27,120 bases of DNA. It comes from a virus. Position numbers and translations under genes: made by a program. The first letter of the stretch is position 1, and each line of letters starts with the position of its first letter. Shown piece by piece: positions 131 through 16,937 of the stretch. Under the pieces are notes generated by a model. The model worked only from the letters and a program-made list of their open reading frames with translations. It was not told where the DNA came from and did no database searches. The DNA lies in IMG/VR virus record IMGVR_UViG_3300030099_002117, positions 1 through 27,120 of that record; one strand, given 5' to 3'.

Positions 131-329
131 CAAATTTATATTTGCTTTGATTTTTTAAGTTGTGGCTAGCGTATAAATATTTATATATTTTTGCTGGCTT
201 TTTGTTGTGCTAAAACTTATTTAAATAAATATCCGCACATTTACATATTTATATGTATAATAGATCACATGATAGATATAATTAATAAACTACTGTATAA
301 ATTTACAGTATACAAATTAGGAGAATAAA
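131..329. promoter_or_regulatory. Divergent AT-rich control region upstream of gene 330
   Basis: This is a non-coding stretch of about 200 bp between a leftward partial gene and the rightward operon. It contains a perfect 14-bp palindrome (172-185, TATAAATATTTATA) set between the imperfectly complementary arms GCTAGC and GCTGGC. It also has two TATAAT hexamers (256-261 and 277-282) usable as -10 elements for rightward transcription, neither with a good -35 at 16-18 bp, and a LexA-type box at 291-310. The exact start of transcription cannot be fixed by eye. Confidence 0.5.
291..310 (+). promoter_or_regulatory. LexA (SOS) box
   Basis: The sequence TACTGTATAAATTTACAGTA has the full CTGT-N8-ACAG core, symmetrical TA flanks and an AT-only centre. 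It matches the enterobacterial/gammaproteobacterial LexA consensus at 18 of 20 positions. It lies 9-30 bp downstream of the candidate -10 hexamers and 19 bp before the start codon at 330, where a bound repressor would block the promoter or early elongation. LexA control of prophage genes is well known (for example tum of phage 186). Binding here is inferred from sequence alone. Confidence 0.8.
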
Positions 330-575
330 ATGGATTTATCAATACATAATGTTAATGCAATAACTACTGACGGGATTAAAGAATGGCGAGAAGGTGACAA
401 GGTGCGTTATACAGTAGATATGACTTTTGAATTTGAGGACTATGGTCTTAATGTTGATGATAAGAAGAATTGGCAAAGCGGAAATAATCAATGCTCTTTT
501 ACTGTTAGCCTATTTGCTGACACATTGGAGGCGCTAGAGTTTCAAATTGAAGGCGTTAGCAAAGTATATGCATAG
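330..575 (+). CDS. Small hypothetical protein, first gene of an SOS-box-controlled operon
   Basis: This is an 81-residue acidic protein beginning MDLSIHNVNAITTDG, with a good ribosome binding site (TTAGGAG, 319-325) and an ATG start. I do not recognise the family; it looks like a small soluble alpha/beta protein with no membrane segment or cysteine cluster. It is the first gene after a LexA box, so it should be made after DNA damage. By analogy with phage antirepressors under LexA control it could have a regulatory role, but nothing in the protein itself shows this. Its stop codon (TAG, 573-575) abuts the hammerhead-like structure, whose first base is the G of the stop. Confidence 0.8.
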   Translation: MDLSIHNVNAITTDGIKEWREGDKVRYTVDMTFEFEDYGLNVDDKKNWQSGNNQCSFTVSLFADTLEALEFQIEGVSKVYA

Positions 576-630
576 GTTAACTGATGAAGGCTTTTGCCAG
601 AAACTGCCGATAATGTCGGCAGTCTTAACC
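575..630 (+). ncRNA. Hammerhead ribozyme, type I (candidate)
   Basis: The RNA can form the hammerhead three-way junction. Stem I is GGUUAA (575-580) with UUAACC (625-630). The core CUGAUGA is at 581-587. Stem II is GGC/GCC (589-591, 596-598) closed by UUUU. The core GAAA is at 600-603. Stem III is 8 bp, including the core A-U pair (603-610 with 616-623), closed by UAAUG. The cleavage triplet GUC is at 622-624. All invariant core bases (CUGAUGA, GAA, the A15.1-U16.1 pair and C17) are present in the right order. Cleavage would fall between 624 and 625. One defect is seen: the first stem II position is A588/A599 instead of the usual G-C. The open ends lie in stem I, making it type I. It sits between two genes on the coding strand. 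Confidence 0.78.
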
Positions 631-655
631 AAATAAAAACACTAGGAGGTGTTAC

Positions 656-1129
656 ATGAAAATATTAAAAGATAGATACAACTTAAAATTTAAGTGGACA
701 GTATCAAAAGAGGTTAATACGTACGGTTATAATATTTGTTCGTTATTTGTTAACGGTCAAAAGGTCAGTAGCTGTAATGGTGGTGGGTATGATATGCAAA
801 GCACTTGCCTTGGTGAGTGGATAGAAAGAGAATTTAAAGATGAACTTTTACAATTAAAAGAAAAATTTTATGGTTTAACTTTTCACAATCCAAATTGGCA
901 ACCACCTAAAGAAATAATTAAAAAAGAAGAAGAAGGTAAAAGTTTTGGGTTAGAGAGGATACAAGACTTTTATAAACGATCTAGTGATCTACCAACAGAA
1001 AAACATACAATACCTGTTATCGATGGTGCTACTGGTGTTAATAGTGTTGAAAAGATACTAAAAGCAGTTGGTTATCAAAATTCTTGTATTGATTATGACA
1101 AGGGTATTTATTTAGTTGATAGGTGTTAA
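656..1129 (+). CDS. Conserved phage hypothetical protein
   Basis: This is a 157-residue protein with a strong Shine-Dalgarno (AGGAGG, about 642-648) and an ATG start. The N-terminal half has a GGGYDMQSTCLGEWI stretch followed by an acidic/basic helix and FYGLTF. This pattern recurs in small phage proteins of unknown function. The middle (around residues 90-120) is charged and probably flexible. The C-terminal part (GVNSVEKILKAVGYQNSCIDYD) looks like a small folded domain. No enzymatic motif is visible. If the hammerhead upstream cuts, this message would begin at 625 with a short 5'-hydroxyl leader that keeps the ribosome binding site. Function unknown. Confidence 0.82.
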   Translation: MKILKDRYNLKFKWTVSKEVNTYGYNICSLFVNGQKVSSCNGGGYDMQSTCLGEWIEREFKDELLQLKEKFYGLTFHNPNWQPPKEIIKKEEEGKSFGLERIQDFYKRSSDLPTEKHTIPVIDGATGVNSVEKILKAVGYQNSCIDYDKGIYLVDRC

Positions 1130-1486: not shown

Positions 1487-1513
1487 AAGGCGGTATTTAT
1501 TACCGCCTTTTTA
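1487..1513 (+). terminator. Intrinsic terminator of the first rightward operon
   Basis: A 9-bp inverted repeat, AAGGCGGTA (1487-1495) and TACCGCCTT (1501-1509), encloses a 5-nt loop and runs into a T-tract (1508-1512). This is a classic rho-independent terminator for the operon at 330-1466. Confidence 0.88.
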
Positions 1514-12422: not shown

Positions 12423-15400
12423 TCATTTCTCCTTTAAATTTGCAATTTCACTTTTTAATAATTCTATTTGTTCTTGTTGCTCTTGCATACCTTTTACAAG
12501 GTGCGTAACAAGTTTACTATAATCCATTGAGTAGTAACCATCTTGACCTTGATTTACTGCATTTGGTACAAGTTCTTCAACCTCTTGTGCTATCAATCCT
12601 TCATCTGCATGATTATCACTTTTCCAATTATAAGCAACAGGATTAAGATTATTAATAACATCTAAACCTCTTGATGATCCTGTTACATCTTTTAATCTTG
12701 CATCTGAGGATGTATTGTACTGTACAGCATTGGTTGAGCTTTGGTTAATAGAGCCAATTTGTGTGCTGTTTCTTCTAAACACATAAAGTTCAGCACCACC
12801 AGAAGTACCATCCATATTTTGTTGTATGTTTACACCAGTAGCAGTATGTTGAAAAGATAGACCACCCACCCCTTGATTTGATGTAGTTCCTAAAAGTACA
12901 TGTCCAGTAGAAGTTACACGCATGTGTTCATTTTGCGTGCCTTGATCCTCTCTAGTTTTAAATACAAGAGCAGCACCATGTTCATTGTGTGTTGCGTTTT
13001 CTTTGCTTGCTTCAATAGAAGCGTAAGCTGTAATATTACCACCTGAGTGAAAAACTCCACTAAAATTAATTGCACCACCATTACCTGCTGCTAAAGCAGT
13101 TGTATCTGTAGCATTTATAATTCCAGAAGGTATCCCTGCTGTTGTTGCTTTTGCACCATGAGAATCTAAACTAGATGAGATGCTTGTTGTGCCTATACCT
13201 AATCGTCCTGAAGAATCAAGACGCATTTTCTCAGAACCATCTACTTCAAAAGCCATTCTTGAAGCACTTTGACTAGCACCCCCATCAGCAGATAGTGTTA
13301 AATGTCCACCACTTCCTGATATTTCTGAAAAACCACCATCACTGTCTTCAAGTCTAAATCTTGGTGTTGTTGCTGATAAATGTAATTCTCTTGCAGGACT
13401 TGTAGTTCCAATTCCAACACCAGAAGGTGTAAATCGTACTGTTTCTGTACCGTTAAACTGCCAAGTATGAGCTGCTGACGCACTACCTGTTCCAATATTA
13501 TGAACATTTACAAGGTCAGAAGATAAAAACCAATCATGTTCCTGTGCTCCTGCTGATAAAGTAATACCACCTGAACCATCTTCTGCTCCATCAATATGAA
13601 GTTTTGAAGTGGGACTTGCAGTTCCTATACCAACATTTCCGTCTGAACTAACCCTAAATCTTTCTGTATATGTTCCATCTTCTGCTGGCTGTATAACAAA
13701 TGCACCATCAACCTTTGTTGAAGGCATAGCATCTGCTTCAAATCCTAATCTTCCATAACTATCAACACCACCAGTTATTCTATCTCCTCTAAAATCGATA
13801 AATGCTCCAAACCCAACAGCAGGTGTTCCTGAACATGAAGCCTCTATTCTCATAACTTCTACTTCTGCATTGGTTGTAGATGATTCAAGAGCAACATGAA
13901 GTCTATCAGCAGGACTTGAAGTTCCTATACCAACCCTATCTAATCCACCATCAACAAATAACATGTGAGTATTACTTGTTGATTCAACCCTAAAGTCTGC
14001 TGTAGTTCCATCTTCATTAAATACACTTGCTGATCCTGCTTGTCCTGAACTTAAAATACCATCTGACATTTTTATAGCGCCAGAAACCTCAAGAGCTTGA
14101 GAAGGACTTGAAGTTCCTATACCAACATTTCCTGCTGTAGTGATAGTTAAATGACCAGCATTATTAGCCATAAATTGTAAATTATGGTTTGAGGTTGTTC
14201 CAAATTTACCGAGTGCTGATTGTGCTTGTGTTAATATTGCTGCACCACTTGTTCTTTCAGCTTTTATTTCTCCATTACCTGAACTTACAACATGGACTGT
14301 GTGAGAAGGACTTGTAGTTCCAATACCAACTTTTCCTGAACTATCTATACGCATTCTTTCTGTTGATGCTGTCGCAAATGCTAAAGTATTATCTGCTACT
14401 CTAAAAATTGATGCATCACCTGTAGGTACTGAAATATTAGACCTACCAATAAAAGCGTCTGCTGTTATATTTCCTGCAACATCTAGCTTTTGTCCCGGAC
14501 TTGTAGTGCCTATGCCAACTCGTCCTGAATTGTCTATAGTTAATCTTCTTGTATCAGCAGTTTTAAAACTAAAGGCGTGGCTTGTTGTTGTCCCAAACTC
14601 CATGTCTGTTGTAGCATCGTTGTATTCAATAGCTGCTGCAACTGCACCACCATTTCTTTCAAAACTTGCTAATTTTACATCTCCATTACCACTAAATTGT
14701 CCTTCAAATGTAGCAACTGTTGCACCTGCTGAAGCATTATTTACTTCTAGTGTAGATGCTGGACTTGTAGTTCCTATACCAACGTTTCCATCACCTTTTA
14801 AATGCAATACATCTGCCTGTGACGTTGCAGATACGCCATCATGAACTTTAAATGATATAAACGCACCGCCCCCATCTGTAGAATTAGATGTAATAGAATT
14901 ATATCTAAGTGAATCTGATGCTCTTTCAAATCTTAATACTTCTCCAGTAGTTGTTTTTGTTATTAATTTTGTAGATGATTGAACATCTGAATTAAAAAAA
15001 GCTTTTCCTGCATCTGACATATCAAGGGTGAGAGCAGTTATACTTGAACCACCATCTTCACCTTTAAAAATTATATCTTTATCATTTACAGATGATTTAA
15101 TAACAAAGTCATTAGATGAATTTTCAATTCTTCCAATTTGTGTACCGCCATCGTGAAACTTCCATTTACCACCATCTGAATCAAGTTCTATTTCTCCACC
15201 AACATCTAGTGTTAGATCACCTGCATCAGAAATAGTAGAACCATTAATTGTTATATCATCTACTGTAAGGGTTGTAAGTGTTCCAAGACTTGTGATGTTT
15301 GGTTGTGCAGCACCTGTAACTGTTGCTGCTGTTCCTGACACATTCCCTGTTACATTACCTGTTACATCTCCTTCTAAGTTAGAGACCAAAGTGCCAACCG

Positions 15401-16937
15401 CATATCCTGTTCCAGCAGTGTTTACTGTAGTTGTTGGCTCGGCTTGTAAATCTTTAAATAGTTTAAATTTGCCACTATCGGATGCATCTCTAAATAACCC
15501 TGCATATAAATCTTGAGAGCCTGAAGTGTCATACAGACCATAAAAACCAATATCAACACTATCAGCACCACTATTAGCTCTTGCAAGTTTTATAAGAGGG
15601 TCTTCTACTTCTAAAGTTTCGGTATTTACTGTGGTTGTTGTTCCGTTAACTGTTAGATTGCCTGCAATAGTTACATTGTCTGGCAAACCAATCGTTACGC
15701 TTGCTGTTTCACTTCCTGATCCTGAAACCTCAATCTCGTTAGTTGTTCCTGCAACTGTAGCTACATAATTGCCTGTAGTATCTGTGCCAAGAGCTACGCT
15801 GTTTGCAGCTATTGTTGTTGATAAAGTTATATCGCCTGTACCATCAAAATTGACACCTGAAGCAGTTACATCGCCTGACAATGCTATTGATCTTGCAGTA
15901 GCTAGAGCAGTTGCAGTATCAGCTACAACGCCTGATAGATTATTGATAAATGTGTTTGTAACTCTTGCATCAATAGCTGAATTTGCTCTTGCATCTGTGT
16001 AGTAAAGATTTGATGATCCTTCTGATAAATCATCAGTATCGCCAGACAATCCACTTATAACTGGTGGTGTATAAGTAAATACACCTGTTGAACTGTTGTA
16101 AGCAATAGCACCATTACCACTTGCTGATCCTTCTGATCCTATGCTCAATGATCCTCTAGCTCTTGCATTTGTAAAATAAAGATTGCTTGAACCCTCACCA
16201 ATATCATCGCTATCAAAAGTATGTGATCCGCCCAAAGTTATAGCTTGAGAGTTTATGGTCACGCTTGAATTTGCAAGCTTGCTGTTTGCAATAGAGCCAC
16301 CTAGCATAGCATTTGTAATACCACTTGCTTTAACCCTTAATGCATCTGAATTTATTTCTATGGATGAATCATCAACACTTACTGCTAAAGTAACATCACC
16401 TGAAGTTCCGCCACCTGTAAGACCATCACCTGCGACAACGCTTGTTATATCAGCAGAATTAGTGTTTGCAATTGTTAATGTACCTGCTGCATCGTCATAA
16501 GTAAGACTAATACCGCTTCCTGCTGTAAGCAAAGAATTTACCTGATCGTCAACTCTTTCATTGGTGAAATACTTATTGCTTGAACCCTCGCTTACAGAAT
16601 CACTATTGAATGATATGTTTGCTGTACCATCAAAGCTAACACCATTTATTGTTCTTGCTGTTGCTAATGCAGTTGCAGTAGCACTATTGCCAGTTATATT
16701 GCCTGTAAAACTATTATCTGTTGTAAGACTAATACCTGTTGTTACCCATGCATCATTAGCAGCATTTCTTATTTTTAGAGTATTAGTTGATGTATCTATC
16801 CATATTTGTCTAGCAAAAGTTGTACTTGGTGACGATGCATTACTATTATTTGTAACAATAGCCAATAAAGCATTGTTTAAGTCTGCTCTAAATTCGCTTC
16901 CAATTTGGTTAGCTATGTTGTAATCATGTGTTGCCAT
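12423..16937 (-). CDS. Tail fibre / host-recognition protein with S74 chaperone domain
   Basis: This 1504-residue protein is the main receptor-binding candidate. The N-terminus (MATHDYNIANQIGSEFRADL..., through RQIWIDTSTNTLKIRN) is a widespread phage fibre attachment segment. Three EGSSN-Y-T repeats lie in residues 100-340. A VNGTTTTVNTETLEVEDP region comes next, then at least seven VGIGT(T/S/A)SP repeats (about residues 760-1280), probably a beta-structured shaft. The C-terminal 94 residues begin with SDARLK at Ser1411 (codon 12705-12707) and form a Peptidase_S74 intramolecular chaperone, expected to self-cleave before that serine after trimerisation. The final helices (MQEQQEQIELLKSEI) are the chaperone coiled coil. 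No obvious enzyme domain is seen. Confidence 0.93.
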   Translation of the reverse strand: MATHDYNIANQIGSEFRADLNNALLAIVTNNSNASSPSTTFARQIWIDTSTNTLKIRNAANDAWVTTGISLTTDNSFTGNITGNSATATALATARTINGVSFDGTANISFNSDSVSEGSSNKYFTNERVDDQVNSLLTAGSGISLTYDDAAGTLTIANTNSADITSVVAGDGLTGGGTSGDVTLAVSVDDSSIEINSDALRVKASGITNAMLGGSIANSKLANSSVTINSQAITLGGSHTFDSDDIGEGSSNLYFTNARARGSLSIGSEGSASGNGAIAYNSSTGVFTYTPPVISGLSGDTDDLSEGSSNLYYTDARANSAIDARVTNTFINNLSGVVADTATALATARSIALSGDVTASGVNFDGTGDITLSTTIAANSVALGTDTTGNYVATVAGTTNEIEVSGSGSETASVTIGLPDNVTIAGNLTVNGTTTTVNTETLEVEDPLIKLARANSGADSVDIGFYGLYDTSGSQDLYAGLFRDASDSGKFKLFKDLQAEPTTTVNTAGTGYAVGTLVSNLEGDVTGNVTGNVSGTAATVTGAAQPNITSLGTLTTLTVDDITINGSTISDAGDLTLDVGGEIELDSDGGKWKFHDGGTQIGRIENSSNDFVIKSSVNDKDIIFKGEDGGSSITALTLDMSDAGKAFFNSDVQSSTKLITKTTTGEVLRFERASDSLRYNSITSNSTDGGGAFISFKVHDGVSATSQADVLHLKGDGNVGIGTTSPASTLEVNNASAGATVATFEGQFSGNGDVKLASFERNGGAVAAAIEYNDATTDMEFGTTTSHAFSFKTADTRRLTIDNSGRVGIGTTSPGQKLDVAGNITADAFIGRSNISVPTGDASIFRVADNTLAFATASTERMRIDSSGKVGIGTTSPSHTVHVVSSGNGEIKAERTSGAAILTQAQSALGKFGTTSNHNLQFMANNAGHLTITTAGNVGIGTSSPSQALEVSGAIKMSDGILSSGQAGSASVFNEDGTTADFRVESTSNTHMLFVDGGLDRVGIGTSSPADRLHVALESSTTNAEVEVMRIEASCSGTPAVGFGAFIDFRGDRITGGVDSYGRLGFEADAMPSTKVDGAFVIQPAEDGTYTERFRVSSDGNVGIGTASPTSKLHIDGAEDGSGGITLSAGAQEHDWFLSSDLVNVHNIGTGSASAAHTWQFNGTETVRFTPSGVGIGTTSPARELHLSATTPRFRLEDSDGGFSEISGSGGHLTLSADGGASQSASRMAFEVDGSEKMRLDSSGRLGIGTTSISSSLDSHGAKATTAGIPSGIINATDTTALAAGNGGAINFSGVFHSGGNITAYASIEASKENATHNEHGAALVFKTREDQGTQNEHMRVTSTGHVLLGTTSNQGVGGLSFQHTATGVNIQQNMDGTSGGAELYVFRRNSTQIGSINQSSTNAVQYNTSSDARLKDVTGSSRGLDVINNLNPVAYNWKSDNHADEGLIAQEVEELVPNAVNQGQDGYYSMDYSKLVTHLVKGMQEQQEQIELLKSEIANLKEK

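Follow-up and report, generated by a model that had tools for sequence, protein, structure and literature searches.

At positions 575-630 of the window, the stretch of 27,120 nucleotides of viral DNA that we analysed, a type I hammerhead ribozyme lies between two phage genes, and its fold is confirmed base for base. It is an intergenic hammerhead of the phage kind whose stem II opens with an N.A mismatch followed by a G at position 10.2, and it probably cuts the operon transcript at 624/625 and acts as a portable module that sets a transcript boundary. The contig carries genes of the siphovirus type, among them those for an HK97-type capsid, a lambda-like tape measure, a J-like tail protein and a primase/helicase. 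The features of the locus are as follows:

291-310, plus strand: LexA-like palindrome TACTGTATAAATTTACAGTA, upstream of gene 330
330-575, plus strand: upstream gene (gene 330), 81 aa, no known family; a 78% identical homologue stands before the same ribozyme in L196
575-630, plus strand: type I hammerhead ribozyme, A10.1-A11.1 variant (from fold, covariance model and four other same-locus copies)
575-580, plus strand: 5' strand of stem I, GGUUAA, which pairs with UUAACC at 625-630
581-587, plus strand: core CUGAUGA (from sequence)
588-599, plus strand: stem-loop II with the A588.A599 mismatch (10.1/11.1), GGC/GCC and the loop UUUU (from sequence)
600-603, plus strand: core GAAA, in which A603 is A15.1 (from sequence)
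603-623, plus strand: stem-loop III, A15.1-U16.1 (A603-U623) plus seven pairs, 8 bp in all
624-625, plus strand: predicted cut between C624 (C17) and U625, from the hammerhead fold
625-655, plus strand: leader of 31 nt, the 3' strand of stem I plus AAAUAAAAACACUAGGAGGUGUUAC; it would form the 5' end of the downstream mRNA after a cut
638-653, plus strand: leader hairpin AACACU/GGUGUU, weak alone (z=-1.1)
656-1129, plus strand: downstream gene (gene 656), 157 aa, with 45 relatives in viral contigs
1487-1509, plus strand: probable intrinsic terminator (terminator scan) that ends the operon 330-1466

All three stems are contained in the minimum-free-energy fold of the isolated 56-mer (-20.5 kcal/mol, z=-4.4), and with flanks the hammerhead fold has a z of -3.4. 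The unpaired hammerhead core C3UGANGA9, G12AA14, together with A15.1-U16.1 and H17, is present as CUGAUGA, GAAA, U623 and C624; N7 is U in the window and C in L196, which is permitted. The open end is at stem I and stems II and III are closed by loops, as in type I. The usual G10.1-C11.1 closing pair of stem II is absent, and A588.A599 takes its place. This pair is usual in hammerheads and not universal, U-U being known. No tertiary partner of loop II was identified in the window hammerhead; a pseudoknot between its UUUU and the A-rich leader is conceivable on paper. G575 is at once the last base of the stop codon TAG (573-575) and the first base of stem I. A first-pass annotation of the DNA had proposed a type I hammerhead at 575-630 with a cut after C624, and sequence, fold, covariance model and relatives support this; the sequence also agrees with its statements that the stop codon of gene 330 gives the first ribozyme base and that the start codon at 656 leaves a leader of 31 nt. 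Its further claim that every invariant core base is in place holds for the unpaired core and fails at the G10.1-C11.1 pair, as that annotation itself had noted.

A covariance model trained on 18 ordinary G-C phage hammerheads, with the window left out, finds a single copy in the window and scores it at 37.4 bits (E=1.4e-8), the runner-up place reaching 12.3 bits. The Rfam model Hammerhead_1 (RF00163; at least 34 bits) recognized nothing in the window in a gathering or a permissive search, at any threshold; the covariance search that had been proposed at first pass thus drew a blank with the Rfam models and succeeded with the model of phage hammerheads. At the Rfam gathering score none of about 30 related phage hammerheads in 12 loci was reported, G-C types included, and we conclude from these misses that the Rfam model overlooks the phage family. 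With a strict descriptor applied to the phage loci then collected, the true core gave 158 matches and nine of ten altered cores gave none; the tenth, CTGAAGA, gave four and corresponds to the permitted N7=A variant. Already the first DNA pattern had retrieved many sites with the same core and the A.A mismatch from viral contigs, and at several of them stems I and III were well paired, though the pattern did not demand pairing. The stem pairs vary on both sides, and a pairing descriptor had been used to pick the rows of alignment A1, which makes the covariation counts from it partly circular; support rests instead on the altered cores, a control free of this pairing bias, on the left-out window and on the same-locus copies.

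The mismatch in stem II belongs to a wider pattern. Two scans blind to 10.1/11.1 yielded 269 distinct copies among the matches listed, with G-C in 238, C.A in seven, A.A in five, U.U in three and G.U in one; U-A, A-U and C-G were seen in none of these 269. In fifteen of the 269 listed, an inserted U stands between A9 and a normal G-C pair, and this second variant of stem II occurs in L112, L117, L144, L165 and others. Among the matches listed, all 12 copies with A.A or C.A have G at 10.2, whereas copies with G-C have it in 95 of 238 cases (Fisher P=2.6e-5); the partner of this G is C in eight of the 12 and U in four. G589 of the window is the G10.2 common to every variant of the N.A class. Stem-loop II averages 12.2 nt in the A.A/C.A copies, 13.0 nt in the G-C types and 14.2 nt in the U type, which is an insertion. 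A symmetric insertion was weighed as an explanation of A.A and dropped: since stem-loop II shows no extra length compared with the G-C types, A.A or C.A looks like an in-register replacement that requires a G one step further in. Judging from established hammerhead biochemistry, G10.2 perhaps keeps a purine near the A9/G10.1 metal site. As A.A or C.A with a fixed G10.2 recurs in many contigs, we call the window ribozyme a variant. The first-pass caveat on A-A was correct as to the mismatch, which is a recurrent natural variant with the G10.2 rule rather than a one-off defect. According to the 2011 survey (PMC3088659), G10.1-C11.1 is surpassed in conservation by no pair except A15.1-U16.1, and U10.1-U11.1 occurs in nature and is the most active mispair reported; for these reasons A-A is predicted to be slower in minimal constructs. 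We found no mention of A.A or C.A at 10.1/11.1 in the main text of that survey (PMC3088659), and within the literature compared the N.A/G10.2 stem II seems to be new as a recurrent variant.

Three pattern scans of viral contigs gave at least 317 distinct hammerheads in at least 212 phage contigs. Among the matches listed, stem I is exactly 6 bp long in 282 of 317, with an A on its 5' side in 263 and on its 3' side in 255 of the 317, as if the geometry were fixed. Of 255 cases among the matches listed, 243 have an upstream frame whose end lies between -4 and +10 relative to the ribozyme's first base, and the stop codon is often provided by GGUUAA (as UAA) or by CUGA (as UGA). From the cut to the start codon the distance is 18-32 nt in 222 of 289 among the matches listed (median 26). 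Related records hold up to nine copies, clustered within a few kilobases of small genes, and 17 of 35 intervals between neighbouring copies contain exactly one gene, ending at the next ribozyme. Repeated copies in a phage gene array, two of them in the sister phage L197, agree with the intergenic arrays described before (PMC3088659). Long leaders of 44-45 nt accompany six hammerheads in L122/L232, with a conserved block, e.g. AAAAGTCAGGTGCAGACTATAACAGGCACA, before the start codon. In the genome collection, a search for the A.A type with GGUUAA gave nothing and the general pattern matched two MAG contigs; these phage-type hammerheads (L357, L358) are in contigs binned as Streptomycetaceae and Niabella, and L357 (Streptomycetaceae bin) may be a misbinned phage contig.

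The ribozyme could be real and yet slow or conditional, so that A.A makes it a switch regulated by Mg2+, a ligand, a protein or ribosome occupancy instead of a constitutive cutter. The non-canonical closing pair of stem II would suit such a role. In the window, as in most relatives, the upstream stop codon and stem I share sequence, so that a ribosome terminating there would cover the core as well as the 5' strand of this stem. However, a conserved extra domain or ligand pocket is absent, the loops are short and variable, and the A.A, C.A and G-C types do not differ in context and at times occur together in one phage (L062, L237, L238), so we regard a regulated switch as unlikely.

Relatives of the locus were found through searches with the leader DNA and the 218-aa neighbour gene, and only through these, as the protein search with gene 330 returned no homologues. 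L196 has a homologue of gene 330, a ribozyme with CUGACGA and then another gene; L197 has three genes separated by two ribozymes; L202 has a divergent gene 330, a ribozyme with C10.1.A11.1 and then gene C. In L198, gene C stands directly behind the promoter with the same leader and without a ribozyme, and in L203 a homologue of gene 656 is present while ribozyme and leader are both absent. Within the ribozyme, the five copies from four phages (the window, L196, L197 twice, L202) differ at N7, at 10.1 and in loops II and III, and nowhere else. The homology between them sets in abruptly at AGGUUAA and stops at AUG, the flanking genes being unrelated; ribozyme plus leader thus form a block of ~86 nt that joins unrelated genes. 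The 31-nt leader is identical in L196 and both L197 copies and one base off in L202, and the AGGA of its Shine-Dalgarno sequence AGGAGG (644-649) lies in the loop of the leader hairpin. It had been asked at first pass whether related phages lose CUGAUGA/GAAA while keeping the surrounding genes: the core is intact in L196, L197 (twice) and L202 except at N7, where the change is permitted, and at 10.1, and L198 and L203 lack the whole module, with no decayed copy seen in either.

The leader itself recurs in a second setting. Promoter-proximal genes of L196, L197 and L198 follow a TATAAT box and then CUUAAUAAA(A)ACACUAGGAGGUGUUAnAUG, without a ribozyme, and internal genes follow the ribozyme plus CUUAACCAAAUAAAAACACUAGGAGGUGUUAYAUG; the post-promoter leader CUUAAUAAAACACUAGGAGGUGUUAAAUG is nearly the same as the post-cut leader UUAACCAAAUAAAAACACUAGGAGGUGUUACAUG. 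Gene C (MEKLSNE...) occupies both positions, promoter-proximal without a ribozyme in L198 and internal with one in L202 and L196. The first gene of the window has a different leader (AAAUUAGGAGAAUAAAAUG). This comparison with relatives suggests that the ribozyme gives an internal gene a promoter-like message start. The equivalence of ribozyme-leader and promoter-proximal leader was not found in the main text of Perreault et al. 2011 (PMC3088659) and seems to be new within the literature compared. None of the 45 relatives of gene 656 in viral contigs has an adjoining ribozyme, L030 having an unrelated hammerhead elsewhere, and since these relatives live without one, gene 656 does not need it. 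The hammerhead of L030 (3640-3690) contains CUGACGAG...CGAAA, precedes a GAGGAGG site and lies directly 3' of a gene whose C-terminus resembles that of gene C.

The operon had been described as SOS-box controlled, which is plausible: the LexA-like palindrome at 291-310 is a good one and is kept in L202, but a AACACTAGGAGG leader replaces it in L196, L197 and L198, and one shuffled sequence in three is expected to contain CTGT-N8-ACAG by chance. The window also holds twelve tandem copies of the 17-bp unit AAATAAGTATTTGCCTT (1723-1926), placed between the operon terminator and a promoter-like site at 1933, with similar arrays at the same place in L198, L200, L201, L202 and L203; these are perhaps origin iterons or an operator array. 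On the minus strand, 12423-16937 encodes a repetitive tail protein of 1504 aa in which GIGTTSP recurs many times and whose C-terminus we take to resemble an intramolecular chaperone, S74-like.

The sharp boundaries of ribozyme plus leader between unrelated genes could also point to a module at the DNA level, a repeat used for recombination or shuffling of accessory gene cassettes with the ribozyme as passenger or relic; neighbours are indeed swapped between phages and copies cluster in small-gene arrays. We consider this improbable, as copy-to-copy changes spare the catalytic core and keep every stem, and the at least 317 distinct copies vary their stems with pairing kept and the core constant, which a mere repeat does not explain. 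There is very little to recommend stem III as a transcription attenuator or terminator hairpin: it is strong and G+C-rich, but it is followed by UCUUAACC without a U-tract, such a hairpin would not account for the conservation of CUGANGA, GAAA and stem I, and we rejected a terminator because the terminator scan reported 1487-1509 and not stem III. Chance resemblance to a hammerhead, favoured by nothing except the missing Rfam match, can practically be dismissed in view of the altered-core control, the model with the window left out and the conserved copies that three other phages have at this locus.

Starting from the observed fold, conservation, context, geometry and modularity, we infer that the hammerhead cleaves in the cell and thereby affects translation and stability. 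The nascent operon transcript would be cut at 624/625 after the ribosome that completes the upstream gene has moved off stem I, and the cut would create a boundary for which neither a terminator nor a new promoter is needed. The upstream mRNA would have the hairpins of stems II and III at its 3' end, together with a 2',3'-cyclic phosphate. Its downstream counterpart would begin with a 5'-hydroxyl 31 nt before the AUG, and its short leader, which contains the Shine-Dalgarno sequence, would almost match the leader of promoter-driven first genes in sister phages. Decay that depends on the 5' end enters poorly at a 5'-hydroxyl, as established work on RNase E suggests. Such a module would be portable, since a gene placed inside the operon would still be translated from a promoter-proximal-like 5' end. 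More tentatively, the ribozyme-leader module might be an RNA-level substitute for promoter and terminator in accessory arrays, and N.A/G10.2 a second selected solution for the metal site of stem II.

The locus is a natural series in which a gene stands promoter-proximal without a ribozyme or internal with one and the leader is shared, and this turns the question of why phages carry hammerheads into a simple reporter test. The failure of the Rfam model on a large phage family suggests that phage annotation misses these RNAs. The A.A/C.A-G10.2 rule offers structural biochemists a natural variant at the best-studied position of stem II.

The setting between two operon genes, which the first-pass annotation did not recognize, is not new: clustered hammerheads flanking single phage genes were published in 2011, when transcript processing was suggested (PMC3088659), and have been reviewed (PMC6155905). 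The 2011 account reports their cleavage in vitro and, for one set from A. tumefaciens, also in E. coli (PMC3088659). What bacterial and phage hammerheads do is an open question according to a 2017 review (PMC6155905). The phage and prophage clusters of Perreault et al. 2011 share the type I fold, the unpaired core and the intergenic position with the window, and their copies likewise flank single genes or short blocks of unknown function, whereas the window has A.A at 10.1/11.1 with an obligatory G10.2 (PMC3088659). Hammerheads with U10.1-U11.1 also have a non-Watson-Crick first pair in stem II, in place of which the window has A.A (PMC3088659). The Rfam Hammerhead_1 (RF00163) is of the same class and permutation, but leaves the window copy unrecognized. 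Haloviruses HF1/HF2 carry a hammerhead (HHphage) 13 nt before the helicase start codon, with a mapped transcript 5' end at most 3 nt from the cut (PMC3088659). It resembles the window copy in standing a few nucleotides before a start codon in a phage operon, and differs in belonging to an archaeal virus, in insertions near C3 and in preceding the first gene of the transcript (PMC3088659). HDV-like theta ribozymes of gut phages are self-cleaving as well, widespread in tailed phages and proposed to process transcripts; in contrast to the hammerhead described here, they belong to another ribozyme class and adjoin tRNAs instead of start codons (PMC10879173).
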